Source: Rusavskia elegans (Eukaryota > Ascomycota > Lecanoromycetes > Teloschistales > Teloschistaceae). Taken from it: a stretch of 64,000 nt of DNA. The stretch spans positions 124,001-188,000 of the forward strand of contig SAUG01000018.1 in assembly GCA_011316305.1 (NCBI GenBank), in the 5' to 3' direction. The position numbers and the translations under genes are program-made. A model generated the notes under the pieces. That model made no database searches, was not told where the DNA came from, and was given only the letters and a program-made list of their open reading frames with translations. Below, one piece after another: positions 10,956 to 47,591 of this stretch. Each line of letters opens with the position of its first letter. Position 1 is the first letter of the stretch.

Positions 10956-12386
10956 CTACACATCCACCGTCCTCCCCTCCTCGCTACTCCTCTTCGCTAA
11001 CTCAATAAGCCGTATCACCTCCCTTGCCTCCTCCGCCTTGACCACCACATCCCCCTTCCCCGCAACAGCAGCCGCGAATTGCGTGTAGATGGCTTTGTAT
11101 GTTGTGTCGGCTGTTGGTTGCAATGTTGGGTGGGGTTTGGATGTGAGGATGGAGTTGATGGGGGTTGTGAGGGTTCCTGTTGATTGTAATGATTGTTAAT
11201 TAGTATGAAATAAGCACTTTGAACTACATGTGTGCAGGATGGAGGGTATGTCACCCACCGGAATGATCTTGCGGCTCGATGCCGAAACCGGCGTCGCCGG
11301 GTCGCATGCCGGATGTGAGGTGTGCTTCTTGGGGATCTTCGTGGTACTGTCGAGAGCGAAAGCATCAGCCCAGTCTATTACCCATAGCTCGATGATGCAA
11401 ACCTTCTTATAAGAACCCCCCTCCCCCCTGACCCAAAACCGCAATTGTTCGGCTTCCAGCGATACCACAGCCACTTTGACCGTGGCCATCATGCCATCAG
11501 CATAGTGCATGAGCACCGTACATGAATCGTCATAACCACCGGTATTCTCAGCTCGTTGTGATCCCAAGAATCCGGTGATTTTCTGGGGAAGGCCGAATAG
11601 TTGGACGATTTGATCGATGAGATGGGCGCCGAGGTCGTAGATTGCGCCGCCGCCGGGCTGGGGAAGGGTTTTCCAGGGCTTGGAGTTGGCAAGAGTGGGT
11701 TTGTAGCGGTCGAAGTGGGATTCGATTTCTACGATTCGGCCGAGGGTGTGGGTTTGGAGGAGGGATTGGAGGGTGAGGAAGTCGGTGTCGAAGCGGCGGT
11801 CTGTTCGTTTGATCGAGTTAGTGAGAATGACTGGCGAAAAGAAAGATTATGACAATAGATAGATAAGGGGAGGCAATAGGGACTCACTTTGGTAGACTGT
11901 CAGCAGTTTGTCGTGTTTCTTAGCCAGGGCAATTAGTTCGTCTGCTTCGCGTGATGTGGGTACGAAAGGCTTTTCTACTAGGACTAAAATGCGTGTTAGA
12001 CATCTAGGTTGTGCTTTCTTTGCTGGTAAAGCATTCGATCAACGTGACAATTAGGTTTTCGAATGCCAATCCTGCCCAACAGAGTATCTCAGCAAGTTCG
12101 TACCATGCTTCCCATTCTCCAAAGCCAGCTTCGTCAATTGGAAGTGCGTGGCTGGTGTAGTAGTAATCGCAACAATTTCTACCGAGTCGTCCTTGACCAT
12201 CTCCTCTGTTGCTCTGTAGCTCTTGATGCCTGGATAAGCTTTCAAAGCGTCATTCTCTGGCGTAGGGTGCCGCTGGACAATAGCATAGAGGCTGAGCTCC
12301 GGGGTCACCTCAATCAGAGGGATATGGAAGACTTTGGCAGCGGACCCGTAACCGATTATACCGACGTTGTATGGTTTGGATGCCAT
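10956..12386 (-). CDS. Gfo/Idh/MocA family NAD(P)-dependent oxidoreductase
   Basis: Five exons (12386-12104, 11983-11888, 11800-11403, 11346-11259, 11176-10956) join in frame to 361 residues. The N-terminal Rossmann fold carries the nucleotide loop VGIIGYGSAAKVFHIPLI, then TTTPATH and the family's EKP motif (VLVEKPFVPT), whose Lys is catalytic. NRRFDTDF, the PGGGAIYDLGAHLID block with the typical Asp/His pair, and a C-terminal alpha/beta domain complete the fold. These enzymes oxidise or reduce sugars, inositols and related carbonyls. The start matches the short MASKPYNVGI leader. It lies 0.54 kb beyond the O-methyltransferase on the same strand and could be a tailoring enzyme of the mycosporine cluster or an unrelated neighbour. 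Substrate unknown. Confidence 0.9.
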
Positions 12387-12929
12387 CCTTGGCCGTCGAT
12401 AGATCAATGAGTACCTTAGGGAAAGCTCAAGACGTGCAGGTCAACCTGGATCACTGCTTCTTGAGGTAGGAAGCGCAGAGGCCTCCGTGATCGTGAATCT
12501 TGACATGGATAGGTTGTTTCGAATCAATCGAGCAATCGATCAAGTCTATGTCGTGACCTCGAAGCATCCAGGGCGACTTCCCCGCAGGTCCGTCGATCTG
12601 GGCTGCTACGGTGGCCTGTTGCGGCAGATGGTGCAGTCCCCAACGACACCTGACCATCCAGTCACGCCTCTCTAAGGACAAAGCTGAGCATTATCGCTTT
12701 GGATGCCATCAAGTTCACTCACATGGTCGTGCAGGCTCTCGCGTGCAGGCTCTCGTTAAACAGGTTTGATTATCATCTGACTCTGCTGCCTAGCTGTCAC
12801 CCAACTCCGTGAGCTATGCACCTTACCTGGCATCGCGCTTGTAACCTCGCTAATGCTTTTCTGCTCCTCAACCATCCTGTTATCAGCGTACGTGTTCGGC
12901 CTTGCAGACGACAATGGGCTTGTCGTCTG
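12387..12929. other. Intergenic, O-methyltransferase 3' flank to oxidoreductase promoter
   Basis: No gene supported. It holds a perfect 14-bp tandem duplication (CGTGCAGGCTCTCG twice, 12728-12755) and most of the perfect stem-loop described separately at 12904-12930. Confidence 0.4.
12728..12755. repeat. 14-bp perfect tandem duplication
   Basis: CGTGCAGGCTCTCG occurs twice head to tail without mismatch, between the oxidoreductase and the O-methyltransferase. No function is evident. Confidence 0.85.
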
Positions 12930-12930
12930 C
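12904..12930 (-). promoter_or_regulatory. Perfect stem-loop at the O-methyltransferase stop codon
   Basis: Arms GCAGACGACAA (12904-12914) and TTGTCGTCTGC (12920-12930) are perfect inverted repeats around a 5-nt loop. On the minus strand the hairpin starts with the last base of the TAG stop (12932-12930) and forms the beginning of the 3' UTR. It could affect termination, mRNA stability or 3' processing; the function is inferred only from structure and position. Confidence 0.6.
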
Positions 12931-13941
12931 TACTCAGCCAGCCCAATACACCTAGTGATTTCAACACCGTCCTGGCTCTATGTCAGCTTGCTCGAGCTCG
13001 TGATTTGGGATGCCTTTCACGTACGGGCTCTCCTGTTGGCTCGTAGCTATTGACAAGCTTGCTCTCATACACGAGGTTTGGGTTGCCCTTGAGTTCTGTG
13101 TTGATCTTCTCCTCTCCCTCCCTCTCCTTGTACATGTCCGCATTTCTTCCAAATTCAGACTTTACATCCATGCCGTTCGACATGTCCGTACTCGCCGCTT
13201 TTCTTTTCTTATCAACACTGCTTCGCACGTACTCGAGATACGGAGGATTTCCTGGTTTGATAACGTTATCGGCGGCCAAAACGGTACCCGGAGTGACGAG
13301 GTTGAGATGTTCGCACAGCTTGAGGTCGGATGTATATGCGGGCTTATAATGGTCCAGAAACATCAGGTCAATATGCTCGAGACTACCTTGGGAATGGAGA
13401 CGCTTGATCGAGTCCGCACTTGAACCAATGACAACTTTGACGATATCACTCAGACCTGCGAGGTCGGCCAGCGATGCGATGACAGCCCCAAACTCTGGAT
13501 TACGTTCCAGACTGAAGTATCTTTTACCTCCAGCCTTTCGAACGGCATCGCCAAATAGCAGAGCAGAGTATCCGATGTATCCACCCAGCTCAACCATTAC
13601 CTGTGGCTTTACTTCGGCAACCAGGTCGGCAACAATCTTGCCTTTGTCGGCCCCAACGTTCATGAGATACTTCTTCGTCCGGCCATACTCATCGATAGCC
13701 TTCAGCACGTTCTCGGGGGAGCCCCGGATTTCCTCTATCGAAGGGTGGCCGTAAACGAAATGGAGGAGCTCAATTTCCCGTCCGTCGTCAAACTACAGGC
13801 TATCATTAGTGATCCTAGTTATGACAGTCCAAGGTACGATCATACAAAAGCTTTTCCTTTTTCTTCTTGTGGAACGTACGCTTTCGTTTGATCGAAAGCG
13901 GCGTGCTTGACACTGTGCAGCGTCGAGGCTGGCATCTCCAT
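12930..13941 (-). CDS. SAM-dependent O-methyltransferase, mycosporine (MysB) type
   Basis: Three exons (13941-13846, 13792-13025, 12971-12930) give 301 residues; the last acceptor could lie 6 nt earlier, adding two residues. It has the catechol-O-methyltransferase-like fold: SAM motif VELGGYIGYSALLFGD (about 99-114), acidic SLERNPEFG (about 126-134), Mg-binding Asp179 in FLDHYK and Asp207/Asn208 in LAADNV. The blocks EYGRTKKYLMNVG and NPPYLEYVRSS resemble the cyanobacterial enzyme (Ava_3857) that methylates demethyl-4-deoxygadusol to 4-deoxygadusol. It is divergent from the sugar phosphate cyclase across 1.16 kb, and the ATP-grasp gene follows that cyclase, which supports a shared mycosporine pathway. 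General catechol methylation is the alternative. Confidence 0.88.
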
Positions 13942-15102
13942 TCTTTCCTTAGGGAATGTTTGCTCTAAGCCGGCTGCGTGTTGGAATGAGTGTTTGCATT
14001 GCCTTCGGCAACCATCTCACCCACGTTTTCGATTGCTTGGGCCTTCCCAGTCATACGTCGTCATCGCCGAGTTCGCTGGCATACGATTTTTGTTTAGTGG
14101 GGGTGGGAATCTTGCTCGGCGCCCCTCCTCTAACCCAGTCAGGCTTAAAGTGATCCCATGGTTGAACGTCAATATCAACGTCGCTTTCTACAGCCTATGA
14201 GCTTTGCAGTCCACTCAACATCCGCTGATGCGCTTCCGGCAGACTACGTATGCCGTGTTGAGGTCATCACCATCGTGGGGCTCAACATCGAAATTTCTCA
14301 ACTGTGGGTGGAAGAGCGGCGGCAATTGCCAGTGGCAGATCCTTCAGCTGCAGCCATGTCATTGGAGCCACAGTGCCACTGCAAGAGTCGATCCTGTACC
14401 ATGGACAGCCTAATGTGCTCTGACCCACGCAGAAGGTTCGTTTAAGATGAACTCTATCTACCCGAGATCTGACACCAGCTTGTTGGACCCACCTCTTCCT
14501 ACGTCTGGGGTGCAGAAAATGCAGGATCCTGGATGGATGATGATGTCAGCACAAGAATTTCAGAAAATCGCTGCATGCAGGGAAGGTTGAAGCAGAGTCG
14601 ATCCAAGATCGATCTTGTTGTTCCTCGGAGGTCGTACCGCATGCCAGGGCTGATTGGAACCGATGCCCCGGTTCCTGTGCATCACCACTATCTCGATTTC
14701 ATTGGCTTTGCAAGCTGTGCGTCGGCCAACAGCGCACTAAGTCTCATTCTAGTCACAGATCTCAGGTCGCAATACCTAGTCCCAAGCCTTTACCCGCGCC
14801 GCCTTCAAGCTAGAGTGGCTCGAGTGGATTGATATGCCTCAAGCACACAGTTTTACACCATATTGTTGCCGGGGTGAAACCCTTACTTGTTGGATTGACG
14901 TTATCGATTCTGGCCAAGCCGCCTATCGAGATGTTGTCACTACATCATCTTCGATGCAGTCGCTTTACTGGTCTTTGCCAGTCAAACACTACTAAATCCC
15001 TCAGAATCCACTCTTTCCCTATCCTAATCTAATTGTTGTTCTGAACCGTCGAACATTCCATTTTTTCAATTCAACCGTGTCCTTTCAAAATCTGACTTCA
15101 AC
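13942..15102. promoter_or_regulatory. Divergent promoter between O-methyltransferase and cyclase
   Basis: A 1161-bp region between divergent starts of two presumed pathway genes. No coding exon is convincing; several short plus-strand frames (13907-14832) lack motifs and splice partners. The last 80 bp before the cyclase ATG are pyrimidine-rich, as in many fungal 5' leaders. Co-regulation, for example by light, is an inference. Confidence 0.5.
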
Positions 15103-16791
15103 ATGTCTGATCTCACGGCTTCCGTTCTTGAGACAAAGAACGGCTTCCATGTCGACGGGTACGAGAAGATCTCGTACGATTTCACCTTTCTTGATGGTGT
15201 TTTCGATACGAAGAATCGCCAGCTAGCAGAATGCTACCACAAGTGGGGTCGTGTCCTCGCGGTCACTGACATGAACGTGTTCAACATGTACGGGAAGCAA
15301 ATCGAAAAGTACTTCGAACACTACAACCTTGAGCTCAAGGTTCACAAGACCAAGATTGGAGAGAAAGCCAAGACGATTCCGACGTTCTTGAGTATCGTCG
15401 ACTCCATGACAGAATTTGGCATCTATCGAAAGGTACTCGCAATACTTTCGTTTCGTTGCCAGACTTCTTGGGTGACAACGGTATTCACTGACGTGTACAG
15501 GAGCCCGTATTGGTTGTCGGTGGGGGCCTCGTCACTGATGTCGCTGGGTAAAAGCATTCTTGCCAGAGATGATATCAAGGCACTCTCCCATCAATCTCCT
15601 AAGGGTTCTTCATACGTCGAAGTCACGTGCTGACTGATCGTCTGTGCAGATTCGCCTGTGCCGCATACCGCAGAAACACCAATTTCATCCGAGTGCCCAC
15701 CACCGTGATTGGCCTGATAGACGCATCGGTGTCCATCAAGGTTGCCGTCAACTATGGCAACTACAAGAACCGCTTGGGTGCTTATCATGCACCGATGCAC
15801 ACTTTCCTTGATTTCACCTTCCTCCGCACATTGCCCAAGGCTCAGATCCGAAATGGGTTTGCCGAATTGATCAAGATCTCATCTTGCTCGCACCTCGCAA
15901 CCTTCGATCTTTTGGACAAATATTGCGAGAAACTGATCGACACCGGATTCGGCCGCGCGGACGGCGCTTCGGATGAGGTTCGCGATGCAGCGGACAAGAT
16001 CAATCGAGAAGGCATCCACGAGATGCTCAAGCTCGAGACGCCTAATCTTCACGAAATCGGCCTGGACCGGGTGATAGCATATGGTCACACGTTCGTCATA
16101 TAAGGCCTTGTCAATGAATCAGGGATGCTAAACATTTCTCAGATGGTCACCTCTGCACGAGCTTGTTCCTGAAACACCTCTCCGCCACGGTCACGCTATT
16201 TCCATCGACATGGCATACTCGGCCACCCTGGCCAACTGCAGAAAGCTCCTCAGCGATGAAGAGCACCGACGCATATTGAACTTGTTCTCCCGCGCCGGCC
16301 TATCAATGGACCACCATCAATTCGATGAAGAGATCCTCGACAAAGGTACAGCAGCTATCCTCAAGACCAGAGACGGCAAGCTTCGCGCTGCGGTCCCGAA
16401 CCCGCTGGGATCATGCACTTTCCTCAACGACGTCGATCATGCAGAGCTCACTGCGGCTTTACGGAGGCACAAGAAAATCATGAAGCAATACCCTCGCAAC
16501 GGTGAAGGGCTCGAAGCCTTTGTCGATGCAAGCGACACAGGATACACTGATAACAACCAGTCAGAGGTCGAAGCGCTTGAGGCTGCGGCCGAGGAGGCGG
16601 GCAATCTGAATGGCTCGATGGACGGCAGTACCGTTGTTCATGGTGGTCATGTCATTAAAGGCCATGCCAACGGGGTCAACGGTCATGCTAACGGATTGAA
16701 CGGTCACCTTATCGAGGAGAAGCTGGCCAACGGCTCGGCCAAAGGTCTGACTAACGGAGTCAATGGCTTCACCAATGTTGCCAAAGCATAA
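15103..16791 (+). CDS. Sugar phosphate cyclase, demethyl-4-deoxygadusol synthase type
   Basis: Four exons (15103-15432, 15501-15547, 15650-16090, 16143-16791) encode 488 residues of the dehydroquinate-synthase fold. The NAD loop is [12 protein letters not shown] (from about 116, spanning two splice sites). Zn ligands are Glu198 in GFAELIK, His272 in YGHTWSP and His288 in RHGHAIS, with the same 16-residue spacing between the two His as in fungal DHQ synthase. The family includes DDGS (from sedoheptulose 7-phosphate, first step to mycosporines) and EEVS; the divergent O-methyltransferase and downstream ATP-grasp favour DDGS. Exon 2 is only 47 nt. The last ~70 residues are an unusual tail with [16 protein letters not shown] repeats after an acidic stretch, outside the catalytic fold. 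Confidence 0.92.
16655..16720 (+). repeat. In-frame NGH/ANG repeat in the cyclase tail
   Basis: Direct repeats coding [14 protein letters not shown] and GH lie within the last exon of the cyclase. The units are near-identical in protein but vary at third bases, so the repeat is kept in frame rather than freshly slipped. Confidence 0.6.
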
Positions 16792-17247
16792 GCGGTAATG
16801 CTTGAGTGGGAATCATGGATGGAGGTGTGCAATAGACTTGAGGCGTAGGAAGATAGATAAGAACAGCTGTGATGTAAAAGTCGTCGTTTTCCTTCAAATC
16901 CGAGATAGAACTTCGTCGCAATGAAAAAGCTAAGAAGGCTTGTTGTATGCCATTGATGTCTTCGTACCTAACCTACCTTACTGAAACCAGACATAATGTC
17001 CGCCAAAAGATCCATCATATTAACATGTTCAGATGAAGCAAGCTATGTATCAGATGAATTGGTGATGACGTAGCCACATGAGCAGCTTTACCTTGTAAAT
17101 TTCTACAGCTTGTTCACTCCGATACTGCGTCATAATATGTTGAGGCTTCATCCACGTGCCCAGGGACAGATCCGTCTTCAATAATTCGATGGAGCAGCCT
17201 TTTCGAGCATCCATCGCATCGAGATCTGCAAAGAACCTCGCTTCGCC
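16792..17247. other. Intergenic, cyclase to ATP-grasp ligase
   Basis: 3' flank of the cyclase and promoter of the ATP-grasp gene (456 bp, same strand). No further feature seen. Confidence 0.4.
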
Positions 17248-18753
17248 ATGCTGAACGGAACTTCCCCCTGGCATCTCCACCTTGCTCAAAACGTTGCTTT
17301 GATCCTCACAAGCGTCCTCTTCCTCCCAATCACAACATTCATCCTCGTTTCCAGCTATGTGATCAGCTTCTTAATTCCTCAGGATGCCCCACGCAAACGG
17401 AGACGACTACGGGCCTCTCGGACCTTCGTTCCACAGACCATTCTCATCACTGGTGTCGGCATGAGCAAAGGCCTTGTTTTGGCACGACTGTTCTACGAAG
17501 CCGGTCATGATGTCATTGGCGCAGACTTTGAGCCTCATGGAGTGCAAGCATGCGGTAGATACTCGAGGAGCCTGAGGAGGTTCTTCAGATTACCCAAGCC
17601 CACGGCAGACGACGGTTCAGCATACTACATCAACGCCCTGCTACGGGTTGTCAAGCAAGAGCGGGTGGATCTATGGGTCAGCTGCTCCGGAGTCGCATCA
17701 GCAGTGGAAGATGGACAGGCCAAAGAAGTGATCGAACGGCGCAGTAGCTGTCGGGCCATCCAATTCGACGTCGCCACTACTAGCGCGCTCCACGAGAAAG
17801 ACACCTTCACGCAAGAGACCGAACGTCTTGGGCTGCCCGTACCGGAGACGCACAATGTGACGAGTCGAGATGCGGTTCACAAGGTCCTCCACAAGAGCCC
17901 GAAGAGGAACAGCTACATCATGAAGAGCGTGGGCGTTGACGACGCCGTGAGAGGCGACATGACGCTCCTGCCCCGACGAACCGTCAGTGAAACATACAAT
18001 CACGTGGCGCAGATAGCGATATCCGATCAGAAGCCTTGGGTCCTCCAACAATTCATCAAGGGCAAGGAATATTGCACGCACGCGCTGGTCATCGAAGGAA
18101 AAGTCAAGATGTTCGTGTCATGCCCAAGTGCAGAGCTTTTGATGCATTACGATGCCCTCCCATCGGATTCGGCGCTCAGTCGGGCGATGCTTGCCTTCAC
18201 GATGGAATTTGTGGCCAGGACTGGAAAGCGTATGACTGGACACCTTTCGTTCGATTTCCTCGTGGACGAGAAAGCCAACGAGAAGGGAGCCGAGCTCCTG
18301 CTCAAATCTATCGAATGCAATCCTCGTGCTCACACCGCCGTCACTCTCTTCTCTGGACAGGGGGCGGAAGTCAGCAAGTGTTACCTCAGCTTACTAGAGT
18401 CCAACATGGCGAACGGCGATGGGCACCTAGCAGACTCGGTTGAAGCGGAAATAGTGGTACCGAAGCAGCCAGCCAAGTACTACTGGGTTGGACATGATCT
18501 GGTCACGCTCGTGCTCCTACCTCTTTTACACCTTCTCCAAGGTCGCATTGGGGTCAAGGATTGGATACGGGGATGTTCCGAGTTCATGGCCCATGTTCTT
18601 TTTTGGCAAGACGGAACATTCGAAGTGTGGGATCCGTTACCATGGTGGTGGCTATATCACGTCTATTGGCCCGGGCAGTTCTTGGTTTCTATCTTACAAT
18701 GGCGGAAATGGAGTAGGGTTAATGTGAGTACGACAAAGATATTTGGATGTTGA
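17248..18753 (+). CDS. Membrane-anchored ATP-grasp ligase, mycosporine (MysC) type
   Basis: A single exon of 501 residues. A hydrophobic segment at about 14-44 predicts an N-terminal membrane anchor. Then come a Rossmann-like preATP-grasp part (ILITGVGMSKGLVLARLFYEAG, 65-86), ATP-binding Lys around YIMKSVGVDDAVRGD (223-237), the hinge WVLQQFIKGKEY (264-275) and the Mg-binding SIECNPRAH with Glu356 and Asn358. The C-terminus is Trp-rich (WDPLPWWWLYHVYWPG). In cyanobacteria the corresponding enzyme (Ava_3856) joins an amino acid to 4-deoxygadusol to give mycosporine-glycine; in fungi the partner may be Ser, Gln or Glu derivatives. Context with the cyclase and methyltransferase is the main support for this substrate. 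Confidence 0.88.
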   Translation: MLNGTSPWHLHLAQNVALILTSVLFLPITTFILVSSYVISFLIPQDAPRKRRRLRASRTFVPQTILITGVGMSKGLVLARLFYEAGHDVIGADFEPHGVQACGRYSRSLRRFFRLPKPTADDGSAYYINALLRVVKQERVDLWVSCSGVASAVEDGQAKEVIERRSSCRAIQFDVATTSALHEKDTFTQETERLGLPVPETHNVTSRDAVHKVLHKSPKRNSYIMKSVGVDDAVRGDMTLLPRRTVSETYNHVAQIAISDQKPWVLQQFIKGKEYCTHALVIEGKVKMFVSCPSAELLMHYDALPSDSALSRAMLAFTMEFVARTGKRMTGHLSFDFLVDEKANEKGAELLLKSIECNPRAHTAVTLFSGQGAEVSKCYLSLLESNMANGDGHLADSVEAEIVVPKQPAKYYWVGHDLVTLVLLPLLHLLQGRIGVKDWIRGCSEFMAHVLFWQDGTFEVWDPLPWWWLYHVYWPGQFLVSILQWRKWSRVNVSTTKIFGC

Positions 18754-19741
18754 TAGGTATGATTATGGTTGGATGAAAACAATTACCAACAATACATGAT
18801 CCATTGGGAAATCAATATCTTAGCTCACATTAATACAAGTGTCTTGGGTACCTTTAAGGTACCTTATGCTTTGACCGATTCGATATCAGAAACATACTAA
18901 ATACTCCAATTTGGCCACCTTTACAATACACAACCTTTGCAACACGCTAAAAACGGCCCGAAATTTAGCTAAGCTTAGTATACCCTATTAGAATATAAAA
19001 GCTTAAAAAGCTCTATTGGCATAGGAAGAAGCCTTAAATATAATAAAACGTTTACTTAAATTAGCAATATAGTAAGAGGTAATAATTTTTTCAAATTTAG
19101 GGGTAAGATCTTTCTGAGATCGTAGATATATAGAGGATTCAGCTAAATCCGTTAAGTCCGTACTGCAAAGGTAGGTGTGTTGCCAAGGTGGCCAAATTGG
19201 AGTAATGCGGAAGAGGTTTGTCCGGGTGCCGTGAATTCCCAGAGGTACCTTATGCAGAAGCCGTTTCGCTCTAAACAGTGATACGCGTGCTAGAGACCCG
19301 ACATGGCGGAATTCAGCGGAACGCTGAGCTTATGACCAATCATACTACACCAGCAGCTTTTCTCTTTACCGCTAAATCAAAGTGGCACATACCAGCTCAG
19401 TGTAACGCGGAGATCGGGCTTGACTCAACCTCGCGCGTCGCTCCTGCACTGGTCAAAGAAGCCGAGCTGCAACATGAGCGTCATGACAGGCAGCGTCTAT
19501 TATGTACACTCGCCATGGTTGCTTCTTTCGCTTTTGTATTCGTCCGTGTGGCTCTACGCCAAAGCTTCGGAGGCATTTCTAAGAGCGAGACAAAGCCACC
19601 GTCCCGTGCCTGTTTGCCTACCACAAGAATGATATAATAACGTCTCCGTCTTTGCACCTGTCGACCTGTACAGTTCAGATAGTTCCCCAAGGACGATCAG
19701 TCTATTCAGCTACCGCCTAATACTCATCCCTCGACCTTCCA
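18754..19741. other. Gene-free stretch containing a MITE
   Basis: Nearly 1 kb without a supported gene. It holds the inverted-repeat element at 18904-19202. Downstream frames (19278-19637) have no motif. The 13-mer AGGTACCTTATGC occurs at both 18857-18869 and 19243-19255, bracketing the element. Confidence 0.55.
18904..19202. mobile_element. MITE with TA target duplication (Tc1/mariner type)
   Basis: A 299-bp AT-rich element. The first 18 bp (CTCCAATTTGGCCACCTT) are exactly the inverse of the last 18, and imperfect inverted homology continues to about 40 bp on each side (ending CCTTTGCA). The dinucleotide TA flanks both ends (18902-18903 and 19203-19204). There is no open frame of note inside, so it would depend on a transposase elsewhere. 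TA duplication points to the Tc1/mariner/pogo superfamily. Confidence 0.8.
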
Positions 19742-20818
19742 ATGGACTTCATATATCCCAGACAGGTATGACCACCAACTCTCAAGATGCGCAAACACAC
19801 AGTCCATGGCTAACTTCCACTTCAGCAGCAGATGCCCCAACATGCTCCGTACCCTCCTAAGACCGCCGGCCTGGGCGGCATACCCACTGTGCATACCGAC
19901 GTCCCCGTCACTGCTATATTCCTCCTCCTCTTCATCTGTGCTGCCGTCGCCCACATGACGATATTCCAGCTCAATATGAGGCGAGGCCACAAGTTCATCA
20001 TGTCCGGGATGATGTTCGGCTTCTGCATGGCCCGGATAACCACTTGCATCATGCGCATCGTATGGGCCACTCGACCTCGCAACATCCAAATCGCCATCGC
20101 CGCCCAAATCTTCGTGGCCGCTGGTGTCGTATTACTCTTCGTCATCAATCTGATCTTCGCCCAACGCATCATCCGCGCCGCCCACCCGAACAGCGGATGG
20201 CATCCGGTCTTCAAGCATTCCTTCACGGCCATCTACGTGCTCATCGTCATCGCGCTCGTCATGGTCATCATAACGAATGTGCAGAACTTCTACACCTTGA
20301 ATGCCAACACTAAACGAATCGACCGCGCCGTCATCCTGGCTGTGGGGACATTCTACACCATCATCAGCATTCTACCGTTCCCCCTGGTCATTGGTGGGCT
20401 TCTCGTTCCTCGCAAGACTCGGGTCGAGAAGTTCGGCAGCGGCCGGTTCAGGACCAAGATCGCTGTCCTTCTTACAGCGTCGTTCCTCCTCTCTCTGGGG
20501 GCGGCGTTCCGTGTGGGCACGAGTTTCAAGACGCCAAGACCGATCGATAACCCCCCGACGTACTACAACAAAGGTTGCTTCTACTTCTTCAACCTGACCG
20601 TCGAGGTCCTGGTCGTCTTCCTGTATGTGGTCGTCCGAGTGGATCGGAGGTTTTACGTCCCGGACGGGAGTAAAGGACCCGGAGATTACTCAAGAAGGAA
20701 TTTATCGGATGAGAAGGAAGGGAATGTTGTGACGAGGATCAACACCGAAGAGGAGGTCTTCGATGACGCGCCGGCGCCTGAGTCGGCGGAGAACTTGAAT
20801 GGTGATCAGAGGGTGTAG
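19742..20818 (+). CDS. Multi-pass membrane protein of unknown function (DUF3112-like)
   Basis: Two exons, 19742-19765 and 19826-20818, give 338 residues: a 24-nt first exon (MDFIYPRQ) joined in phase 0 by a 60-nt intron. About seven hydrophobic helices run from about residue 35 to 280, for instance AIFLLLFICAAVAHMTIF and AIYVLIVIALVMVIIT. The loop motifs MRRGHKFIMSGMMFGFCMARI and YYNKGCFYFFNL resemble a fungal-only seven-helix family often labelled DUF3112. The tail is hydrophilic and acidic. No enzymatic residues are evident. A receptor-like role is possible but not shown. Confidence 0.75.
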
Positions 20819-35420: not shown

Positions 35421-35660
35421 CCGTATCAAAATTGACTCTACAAGACATTCTTCTTTGACAGCATCAACGGGTACAGCCCATATCGATAAAACGAGATCTC
35501 CCAAACAATTGCGTTAGCGTATAACCTTCGCGCAATATCGTGCGCTACTTGGCGAGGTCCAATGTGAATTTTTCGTCCAAACGCCTTCCGCCATCAGACG
35601 TGAAGCGAAAGAAAAAGACTCTTATGTTGCAAAAACAAGGCAAAAGGCAAAAGAAGAAGC
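35421..35660. other. Cyclin H 3' flank
   Basis: 240 bp between cyclin H and the tRNA gene; no separate feature seen. Confidence 0.4.
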
Positions 35661-35748
35661 TCTCCATCTGGGAATCGAACCCAGGTCTCCCGCGCTTGCG
35701 GAGTGACACTCTGACAAGCGGAAATCATGACCACTAGACCAATGAAGA
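35661..35748 (-). tRNA. tRNA-Asp(GTC) with a 17-nt intron
   Basis: Read on the minus strand, the 7-bp acceptor stem is TCTTCAT with ATGGAGA (one G-T pair). The D-arm contains AGTGGTCA, the anticodon stem is TCCGC/GCGGG with loop TTGTCAC, and the T arm is CTGGG-TTCGATT-CCCAG. The anticodon GTC decodes Asp. A 17-nt insert (GAGTGTCACTCCGCAAG) sits after position 37, the normal place of nuclear tRNA introns. The mature body is 71 nt before CCA. Read on the plus strand it gives a misleading protein frame. Confidence 0.9.
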
Positions 35749-43693: not shown

Positions 43694-46600
43694 ATGGGTA
43701 AGTTCGGGGAGAAGTGCAAGCAGCTTTTTCAGAGGAAGGAGTCTGTATCCACAGATGATGCAGAGAATACGCAATCTCCGAAATCATGGCGGGCGAGGAA
43801 TGTCTTGAGGAAGATCAGAAGAGTGAGTTGATCCATGCTTACACCTACTACTGGTACTGTGGCTAACGCACATGCAGAACGTCTCTCGGTTCGCCAAGGA
43901 TACCACGGAGACGATCGTAGCTCCAAAGCGCCCAAAGGCATCGATCGAAGTTGCATCGGATGCTGTATTGGAGCCGCTGGAAAAGTCGGTGGAACATTCC
44001 AGTCTGCCAACAAGTATATCGAATTCCCTCATGAGTCCAGAGCAAACACGTTCCCCTGATCAGGGTGTAATGTCTCCCGGAGACTGTTTTCCCCAGCAAA
44101 GAACGAGAGGTCAGGCAGGCCAGTTGCCCGAGCCAGCAGGGATCACCACAGAGAGCGATGTGCCACCGGAGCAGGTGGTCTCTGAGACCAATATTCCTCA
44201 ATCTCGGGAAGAATCATGTCTTGCAGCAGCACCAGTAGTACTGTCCCCACCAGACGCGACGGAGTCACCAAAAACATCGAATGGAGACTCACAAGCACGA
44301 TACACATCTTCGTGCTACAGCACCCCGACACCAAAAAGTCGCTTTCACCATACCCCCGAAACGTCTCGATCGCCGGAGTCCAACTATCTGTGTACACCAC
44401 ATGATCGCAACAGCTACCTCAAGCTGCTAGATGATCCCATCCGGTGCTCGATAACTGCTGAGACGCCAGATCGGCATAACACGTCATGTGCTCCATGTAC
44501 CACCATTAGTGAAGCACTTGGAATCTTTGAGCGCAGTGTTGGCAGCGGTCCTGAAAGTTCAAACGTCTTCCTCAGTCTCGCACAGGTCCTTGCAGAACAT
44601 GCCGAACCTAAGAAGGAAGAAGCAATTGTGCAGGTTGAGGGTGCTGCAGAGAATAACGCCGCGGAGCAACCAGCTCCCGACACTGCCGACAACGACGATG
44701 AACCAGCTGGTGATAAAGCCAGCATCAAGTCCGAACCTCCAAGTGCCTGGGAGCGGGCAATGGAGTCTCAGGAGCAGTCTTTTCAGATCGAAATCGAAGA
44801 CCTGAAAGAAGACCATGCGGCAGAGGTTGGCGAACTCAAGGAGACTATTGCCAAGCTCGAAAAGGAGGCTGAAGCTGCGAAGAAGAGGAAAGCATACGTT
44901 GAGAGGGTCGCCAACAAGAAGATTGCGGACATCTCTAAGGAAAGGGATGCGGATGAGACGTACTACATTGGGCTGCTGGAAGCTGTCGAGTCAGAGAACA
45001 GCGATAAGCTGCGGGGAAAAGATGAGCAGCTACGGAGGAAAATTGATCAGCTACAAGAGAAGGATAAGCAGTTACAAGAGAAGGATGACCAGCTACAGGA
45101 AAAAGACGAGCAGCTGCAGGAAAAGGACGTCAAGATCAAACGCCAGAATGAATGGGCTGTAACCACCAGCGCCTGGAATACGGAACTCAAGTATGAGTTC
45201 GACGATACAAAGCTCAATGTCATCCGCCCACTGCAACAAGAAGTCGCTCGACTGACGGCCCTGGACCTTGAGAATCGACAGAGGATATCATATCAATCGT
45301 CTCAAATCACATTCCTGCGGAACACTCAAGCCCGGGTTCAGAACAGCGAAGCTCAGCTTCTGCCTAAACTCTTGGATGCATGCAAAGAACGCGATCAGTA
45401 TAAGGCCGATCTCGGGGAATACAGTGGCCGTTATAAACAAACACTCCGAGACCTTGCCGCAGCTCAACGCGATATCCACGAGAAGGAACAACGATTGAAG
45501 AATTTCAACTACGAAAACGAAGATCAACCACATCTCACTGAAGCAGCGGGCTTACTCGAGAGGACGAGGGAAGCATATCAAGCTCTCGAACAGAAGGCCA
45601 ATGAATGCTTGGCGAGGGAGCAAAAGGCACGGAAGAACCACGAACAGGATAAGAAAATCTGGAAACTAAAGGACACGCGGAAGCAGAAAATGATCGACAG
45701 TCTTGGAGCAAAGATCGTACTGCTTGAAACCTCGAATGCACGGCTTGTGAACGATCTGGAGCAGCGGGTTGGGCATGATCCTGGCCATAGAGAGGTGGAT
45801 AACCGACTGCCTTTCCTGTATGAGGAATCACGACACACGGTCGGTGAGCTCCAGGTATACGTTTCTCAACAGGAAACCCAGATCGCCGCTCAGGAGAAGG
45901 AGATGCATCAACATAAGATGACCATCTCCCTCCACACTCGGATACTTGAAGATAAAGACATCGAAGTGCAAAGCCTCCGGGAAGAAAAAATCAACGCCGA
46001 GCGCCAGATCGAGGAAATCCAAACCAAGGCCGACGAGCGAGAAATCGTTTCCGCAAACGAACTGGGCAAAGCAGCCGATGAAATCGAATGGTACCAAACC
46101 CAACTTCGGAAATACCAGAGTCAGATTCAGGGTATGACTGAGCGCGGTGTCCCAGCAGCGTTGATTGAAATCCACCAAGCGGAGATTCAGGAGCTACAGC
46201 AGTACATCGCCGACTTGGAGAAGGAAGTTTGGAGTCATCGAGCGCAGCAGCAAGAACAGAATATCAAAGATTGGCATGATGCTAATGCAGCGGCTGGCAG
46301 CGAACGAGCGAGCCAAATCCTGCGATTGAATTGGGAGAATGCGAATGAGGAGGTTAGGAAATTGACGCAAGAAGTTGCGGTGTTGCGTCAGGGGGGCGAT
46401 CCGCGGCAATTCGAGATTGCGGAACAGATGGCAACAGCGCGCGAGGAGTGTGAGCAACTTCAAGAGAGATTGGAAGTGAGCGAGCAGAAGACGGAGAGTG
46501 TGGTGGCAGATGTGTTGGTGCTGGGAGATCTTGCGGGCAAGATGTGGAAGAGCCTGCAGATGACTTGGGCTCGGGATGGGGAAGCTGAGTTGTTGGAGAC

Positions 46601-47591
46601 GCTGGGGCCCGTGGCGGAGGAGATTAATGGGGTGATGGGAAAGTATTGTGATGGCGAGGTCGAAGGCGATGCAAACACCGAAGGTGAGGAGGCGGACGTT
46701 GAAGATGACCCAGAGCTCGACGACTATGTTGAAGAAGCGGAAGGGTTGGTTCGGGAATCCGAAGGGAACACCACCACCACTCCAGCTCAGGATGGAGATG
46801 CCTTTCACATTCCATCGTCAGCATTCCGAGATTCATGGGCCTCTGCTGTCACCAATCATTTTGAGAGCGCACCCAAACATGATCGACTGGATGGAAATCA
46901 CCATATTTCGGCCTGTTCGTCTTACCGACCTGGACATACCTTCGCCGTGCCAGCGTCCTCCACCAACTCCTCCTCCTCCTCATCCTCTGATGTCCTAGAT
47001 TCAGAAGACGCACACGACCAGGAACACAGCCCTTCAGACCCCCTGGACTACACCAACTCTCAAGAACCCATCTCCAGCATCAAGACCAACCACAAACCAT
47101 TCGACGTCCTCAATAATTTCAACCACATCGACCTCGAGGCCAGCAATACCCTTACACCAGACTCACCATATCCCGACTCCTTATCCCCAAAGTCTCTAAT
47201 CCCCTACCAACTCACCGAAAAAGTGGAAGTCGAGCTCATCACCCAAGCAGCCTACGACCTTATATTCCCCATCCCTCCTCTTGGGAAGATGCTAGAAGGG
47301 CCAGTAGAATGGGGACACGAAATCCTATATGCTCCGCAAGCAAATCAATATAGGCACAACGGCGACGTTGGTCGGGAAGAGTATGGAGGGAGTGACGGGC
47401 TGGAAGAATATCGAGATGAGGATGGTCAGGAGGAGCAGGAAGGGAAGGCGGAGTACACCGAGGAGGATTTGGATGAGCTGATTGCTGAGTTTGCGGGTGG
47501 GAATGGGGGTTGGGGGTGGGAGGGGGATCTGGCTGTGGAGGTTGAGGATAGGGACGAAGTGGATGAGGAGGGTGGTGGTGTTGCGTTGTGA
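43694..47591 (+). CDS. Large coiled-coil protein of unknown function
   Basis: Two exons, 43694-43822 and 43878-47591, give 1280 residues (MGKFGEKCKQLFQRKES at the start). Residues ~60-320 are Ser/Pro/Glu-rich and disordered. A long coiled coil spans ~320-950, with a run of DEQLQEKDKQ-type heptad repeats near 419-465. From ~990 the tail is acidic with a Ser run and ends in Glu/Gly-rich sequence. Such proteins act as scaffolds or tethers (spindle pole, septum, Golgi or cell tips), but nothing here assigns a site. No motor, kinase or membrane motif is visible. The ATG at 43694 is followed by GTAAGT at 43698, so an alternative 5' splicing pattern is conceivable. Confidence 0.75.
45005..45140 (+). 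repeat. In-frame QLQEKD heptad repeat
   Basis: Seven-codon units of the type (D/K)-x-Q-L-Q-E-K repeat about six times within the coiled-coil gene. DNA units differ at several bases, so the repeat is old and maintained at protein level. Confidence 0.75.

Follow-up and report, generated by a model that had tools for sequence, protein, structure and literature searches.

Whether Rusavskia elegans carries the genes for a mycosporine, a UV-absorbing compound, is the question raised by three adjoining genes in a 64,000-nucleotide stretch of its contig SAUG01000018.1 (positions 124,001 to 188,000, hereafter the window). The original prediction, made from the letters alone, had described a compact mycosporine-type trio of less than 6 kb, and the three genes are indeed all present with open frames across 12983-18753 of the window: an O-methyltransferase (OMT) on the minus strand, and a desmethyl-4-deoxygadusol synthase (DDGS) and an ATP-grasp ligase (ATPG) on the plus strand. 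The locus is very probably a fungal mycosporine biosynthetic cluster, with what characterizes a fungal MYC cluster found together here: a DDGS-type cyclase, its intact Zn ligands, an adjoining OMT, and an adjoining ligase of the MysC/ATPG family. What speaks for the mycosporine reading is that the same trio makes mycosporine-glutaminol in the fungus Phaffia rhodozyma, as established by gene deletion and by expression in Saccharomyces cerevisiae (PMC10057719). The locus is thus a well-preserved new example of an already known type of fungal cluster. The features of the trio are as follows.

12983..13792, minus strand: OMT exon 2 (catechol O-methyltransferase (COMT)-type enzyme, 301 amino acids in all)
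13846..13941, minus strand: OMT exon 1 (start codon at 13941)
13942..15102, no strand: divergent OMT/DDGS intergenic region, 1161 bp
15103..15432, plus strand: DDGS exon 1
15501..15547, plus strand: DDGS exon 2
15650..16090, plus strand: DDGS exon 3 (carries Zn ligands E198 and H272)
16143..16791, plus strand: DDGS exon 4 (carries Zn ligand H288; C-terminal tail low in complexity and NG-rich)
17248..18753, plus strand: ATP-grasp ligase of MysC/ATPG type, 501 amino acids, single exon, hydrophobic N terminus

The source assembly (44.16 Mb in 217 contigs, GC 0.51) holds spliced genes, and the introns of the trio (three in DDGS, one in OMT, and none in ATPG) are of the GT-AG type; on the assembly size and the introns, we discarded a prokaryotic reading. 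The four DDGS exons encode 488 amino acids, or 487 if an acceptor 3 bases further on is used. Among the 120 rows listed for each protein, the closest relatives are from Flavoplaca for DDGS (94% identity over 100% of the query, row P0001), Squamulea for the OMT (91% over 95%, row P0121), and Xanthoria sp. 2 for the ligase (97% over 100%, row P0241). Our gene models agree with those of the relatives, which are lichen fungi that we take to belong to Teloschistaceae. Searches of the assembly returned only its own two exons for the OMT and only the ligase gene itself for the ligase, and the DHQ-synthase profile PF01761 matched twice, at the window DDGS and on another contig (C139). As far as these searches see, each of the three genes is single-copy.

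Assignment of the cyclase

The cyclase had been described as an enzyme of the dehydroquinate synthase (DHQS) fold with complete Zn ligands, and Glu198, His272, and His288, positions derived from alignments that we take to be the Zn ligands by reference to the DHQS family, are all in place. Compared with solved structures, the protein scored 485.7 bits to 5TPR, 223.6 bits to 4P53, and 108.9 bits to the best DHQ synthase. We take 5TPR, whose entry prints the name 3-dehydroquinate synthase, to be the Anabaena DDGS. Six fungal relatives of the window protein are 55 to 56% identical to the 5TPR segment. The second structure, 4P53, is ValA, a 2-epi-5-epi-valiolone synthase (EEVS) (PMC4426668).

To define residues diagnostic of DDGS, we searched bacterial genomes with an alignment (A1) that had the 5TPR segment at its head and kept the best 80 of 256 relatives, all of them cyanobacterial by title, so that the comparison is one with cyanobacteria. 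After removal of 10 of the 80 rows that had truncated open reading frames (ORFs), 100 columns were at least 95% conserved in the remaining 70 cyanobacterial DDGSs and different in ValA. At these columns, the window cyclase carries the DDGS residue 67 times, the ValA residue 4 times, and another residue 29 times; this supersedes the count made before the removal, which gave 47 columns, with 30 DDGS-like, 3 EEVS-like, and 14 other residues. The cyclase is also identical at 24 of 30 positions to the 30-mer with which the Phaffia DDGS was recognized (PMC10057719), and this 30-mer is the extent of our sequence comparison with Phaffia.

Phylogeny against DDGS, EEVS, and DHQS references had been proposed as a check of the assignment, and its outcome did not refute it. 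In an IQ-TREE analysis of 42 rows (20 of 120 fungal relatives plus the window, 18 of 70 cyanobacterial rows plus 5TPR, and one row each for EEVS and DHQS), the window protein fell into a fungal DDGS group (support 100/100) nested in a group of all DDGSs (96/98) that excludes the EEVS and DHQS rows, both of which are partial segments on flagged long branches. The cyanobacterial rows do not form one side of a branch in this tree. The best NCBIfam match of the cyclase was aroB at 185 bits, under the cut-off of 305. On bit scores, diagnostic residues, and the tree, we rejected an EEVS or DHQS identity and assign the cyclase to DDGS. The DHQ synthase of the shikimate pathway is predicted to be a separate, pentafunctional AROM-like gene on contig C139, where the DHQS domain continues, as read by eye, into EPSP-synthase-like sequence.

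The methyltransferase and the ligase

The window OMT matches Pfam Methyltransf_3 and had been called COMT-like as well as similar to the cyanobacterial 4-deoxygadusol methyltransferase. The first description holds, with scores of 160.5 and 136.2 bits to the COMT structures 5zy5 and 6aw4, against 54.8 bits to the best non-COMT structure (7cvu) and 40.8 bits to 3tr6. The second does so at the superfamily level only: fungal and cyanobacterial OMTs share 24 to 28% identity in their best matches, with a best E value of about 1e-8, and the fungal OMT found a match in 41 of 80 cyanobacterial loci by tblastn (1e-4) and in 73 of 80 by ORFs (1e-3). Two cyanobacterial cluster OMTs (L088 and L022) behaved the opposite way, scoring 122 to 135 bits to 3tr6, 116 to 128 bits to 3cbg, and 97 to 101 bits to the plant caffeoyl-CoA O-methyltransferase (CCoAOMT) 5kva, but 35 to 47 bits to vertebrate COMTs. 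They also scored 95 and 112 bits to 2avd, a structure labelled catechol-O-methyltransferase that we take to be the human COMT-domain protein COMTD1 and that sits on the cyanobacterial side of the OMT tree. In this 44-row tree, built from 19 of 120 fungal and 18 of 71 cyanobacterial rows together with COMT and CCoAOMT-type rows that are partial segments on flagged long branches, the fungal OMTs and two COMTs were separated from the cyanobacterial OMTs and four CCoAOMT-type rows with support of 100/100. Residues D179-K182 (DHYK) and D207-N208 of the window OMT align with the COMT motif residues. By its sequence, the window OMT is a member of the COMT subfamily, and its kinship to the cyanobacterial, CCoAOMT-like OMT goes no further than the shared superfamily.

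We lean towards regarding the fungal mycosporine pathway as a mosaic, in which the cyclase and the ligase would share ancestry with those of cyanobacteria and methylation would be carried out by a eukaryotic COMT-type enzyme through non-orthologous replacement. A COMT label for a mycosporine OMT is not new, as an InterPro entry named 'catechol o-methyltransferase' is listed under mycosporine synthesis for Naganishia (PMC12204325).

The ligase had been predicted to be an ATP-grasp enzyme. A Pfam scan gave no ATP-grasp match at E 0.01, and the sole NCBIfam match was PRK06849 at 203.5 bits, below the cut-off of 406; a cyanobacterial cluster ligase (L064) matches the same model at 537 bits. By tblastn, 75 of the 80 cyanobacterial DDGS loci gave a match to the fungal ligase, and identity in the six best matches was 29 to 32% over 443 to 496 columns (E down to 6e-58). 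An AlphaFold2 model, computed from a 31-row alignment (pLDDT 78.8, pTM 0.80), retrieved PylC, 2PN1, GAR synthetase, and the amino-acid ligase RizA in Foldseek with E values of 5e-13 to 8e-12 and query TM-scores of 0.39 to 0.45, a likeness at the level of the fold only. The PRK06849 match, the similarity to cyanobacterial ligases, and the modelled fold together support an ATP-grasp enzyme, in agreement with the earlier call. Like 70 of 73 cyanobacterial ligases, the window ligase has a hydrophobic N-terminal stretch, which suggests that the enzyme may be membrane-associated.

Comparison with known clusters and relatives

The Phaffia MYC cluster (GenBank OQ547787), which had earlier been found by genome mining (PMC5103461), encodes the same three enzymes in a compact block, with DDGS, OMT, and ATPG proteins of 477, 284, and 500 amino acids compared to 488, 301, and 501 in the window (PMC10057719). 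In both, the OMT is oriented opposite to DDGS and separated from it by a long intergenic region, and by analogy with IGR1 of Phaffia the region in the window may be a putative shared promoter (PMC10057719). The gene order differs: the window has OMT-DDGS-ATPG, its ligase running in the same direction as DDGS, and Phaffia has DDGS-OMT-ATPG, its ligase running in the same direction as the OMT; the introns in DDGS, OMT, and ATPG also differ, numbering 3, 1, and 0 in the window and 13, 6, and 5 in Phaffia (PMC10057719). Compared with the cyanobacterial mysA-mysB-mysC genes (Anabaena Ava_3858-3857-3856 and kin), DDGS is about 56% identical and the ligase, which shares the hydrophobic N-terminal stretch, reaches the identities given above, whereas the OMT is of another subfamily. 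Unlike cyanobacterial mysABC(D/E), the trio has no MysD or NRPS-like gene (NRPS, nonribosomal peptide synthetase) beside it among the window ORFs scanned. A scan of bacterial genomes with the fungal DDGS as the single query returned no relative, in contrast to the 256 found with A1.

The arrangement recurs in other fungi. We counted neighbourhoods from the printed locus tags of 60 DDGS, 50 OMT, and 41 ligase relatives. DDGS and OMT lie at most two tags apart in 20 of the 21 genomes for which both are listed, DDGS and ATPG at most two tags apart in 12 of 13, and OMT and ATPG at most three tags apart in 14 of 15; DDGS stands between the other two genes in seven of the eight genomes listing all three. 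The exceptions are Cladonia borealis, with its OMT 14 tags off DDGS, and Gyalolechia sp. 2, with a ligase tag about 2450 away. Aplosporella (K452DRAFT), whose DDGS and OMT numbers are far apart and seemingly not in gene order, was left out of the count, as were second OMT tags with the prefixes LTR66 and LTR28, a few single-list tags, and rows without a printed tag. Haloplaca, Pycnora, and Gyalolechia carry OMT-DDGS-ATPG blocks of the same proteins with neighbouring tags, compared by identity and tags alone, and OMT-DDGS pairs with neighbouring tags occur in Cryomyces, Neophaeotheca, and Peltaster. The set includes, as well as lichen fungi, Cryomyces, Neophaeotheca, Peltaster, and Zalaria, which we take to be black and plant-surface fungi. 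Gene content, enzyme class, key residues, and this conserved neighbourhood are all direct observations. In the source annotations, the fungal proteins are often named hypothetical, EEVS, DHQS, or COMT. Our literature search on lichens and COMT found no description of the cluster in lichen fungi, which is no proof that it is unreported; a paper treating Teloschistales genomes and anthraquinones had no count of 'mycosporine' in its available text (PMC9907504).

Downstream of the ligase, the following gene was modelled.

19742..20818, plus strand: DUF3112 membrane protein gene, one intron, 336 to 338 amino acids depending on the acceptor

Among the 120 ligase relatives listed, three (Polycauliona, Blastenia, and Gyalolechia) have a gene model that runs from the ligase into the DUF3112 protein, so the two genes adjoin in those relatives too; the fused models are probably an annotation merger. 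We do not claim the DUF3112 gene as a pathway member, and it is unlikely that its product works as a fourth one, either in transport or as a membrane scaffold for a membrane-associated ligase. On the other flank, a Gfo/Idh/MocA-type oxidoreductase gene (about 11199-12410, minus strand, at least two pieces) adjoins the OMT; we considered it as a glutamine-to-glutaminol reductase and found nothing in favour.

Between the ligase and DUF3112 genes lies a repeat of 303 bp (18902-19204), with TA at both ends and with termini that are inverted copies identical over 20 bases (TACTCCAATTTGGCCACCTT). It has 57 matching pieces in the assembly, those longer than 200 bp being 71 to 86% identical, the window's own copy apart, and it looks like a miniature inverted-repeat transposable element of the Tc1/mariner kind. 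Elsewhere in the window, an open frame of 1254 amino acids (43827-47588, plus strand) had no Pfam match at E 0.001, and a tRNA gene (35659-35748, minus strand) scored 46.4 bits to the Rfam tRNA model, with no isotype assigned by ARAGORN.

Predicted product and alternative readings

By analogy with Phaffia and cyanobacteria, from which each chemical step is taken over, DDGS would convert sedoheptulose 7-phosphate to desmethyl-4-deoxygadusol in a Zn- and NAD-dependent reaction, and the COMT-type OMT would convert this to 4-deoxygadusol. The predicted product is most likely a mono-substituted mycosporine. Since mycosporine-glutaminol is the Phaffia product and mycosporine-glutamicol has been measured in Cladonia arbuscula, a Lecanoromycete lichen (PMC9318770), our best guess for the amino component is a glutamine-derived one, such as glutaminol or glutamicol. 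The DDGS of another Cladonia, C. borealis, is 83% identical to that of the window.

Several points weigh against this assignment of the locus. No curated model identifies DDGS or the ligase by name, with aroB below its cut-off as the best for the cyclase, and the amino substrate of the ligase is not readable from its sequence. The OMT lies outside the subfamily used in cyanobacteria, and its substrate is for that reason deduced from its position in the cluster.

Two other explanations were weighed. The cyclase could be an EEVS or a stray DHQ synthase, with the trio making something else, such as a gadusol-like or pseudosugar product. These enzymes belong to the same superfamily and the best, if sub-threshold, NCBIfam model points to aroB, but the bit score to EEVS is less than half of that to DDGS, the 67 to 4 balance of diagnostic residues favours DDGS, and the cyclase lies outside EEVS and DHQS in the tree, each outgroup there being one long-branch partial row; we consider this explanation extremely improbable. 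Alternatively, an off-cluster enzyme could add a second amino acid, giving a di-substituted imino-mycosporine-like amino acid. The absence of a fourth gene, noted in the original prediction, holds for what was scanned in the window: Pfam scans of 35 ORFs and two spliced models, out of a window with 72 often overlapping stop-to-stop ORFs of at least 150 amino acids, gave no AMP-binding or D-Ala-D-Ala-ligase domain, although such scans might overlook a gene that is short or split. It does not extend to the rest of the genome, where a D-Ala-D-Ala-ligase-like gene (L006, contig C156 near 220016, at least one intron) encodes a PF07478 protein and adenylation domains occur on other contigs (14 of 78 candidates scored, none on the window's contig). 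L006 and a cyanobacterial MysD-like ligase share their best NCBIfam model, both below its cut-off, and are not told apart by it. In Hypoxylaceae, a survey has connected certain NRPS-like clusters with mycosporine-like products (PMC8403587), so that a fourth gene may operate in other fungi. However, L006 shows no linkage to the cluster and resembles the ligases of the cyanobacterial loci only weakly (matches in 3 of 80 loci by tblastn and in 4 of 80 by ORFs, at most 47 bits), neither it nor the adenylation domains have a known link to mycosporines, and the fungal cluster is described as three core genes without a fourth enzyme in PMC10057719. We thus judge a di-substituted product very unlikely and retain a mono-substituted mycosporine as the likely product of the trio.

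The mosaic at the methylation step is the part of this result most worth pursuing. The COMT-type OMT offers a tangible example of a sunscreen pathway in which an enzyme from a different subfamily has apparently assumed one of the steps, and such a replacement, if true, would account for the COMT labels that these genes carry in source annotations. The lichen group to which the organism belongs lives exposed to the sun and is known for coloured anthraquinone screens; the trio gives it the full set of genes predicted for a second UV screen, a colourless one, and makes it testable whether lichen mycosporines come from the fungus or from the photobiont.

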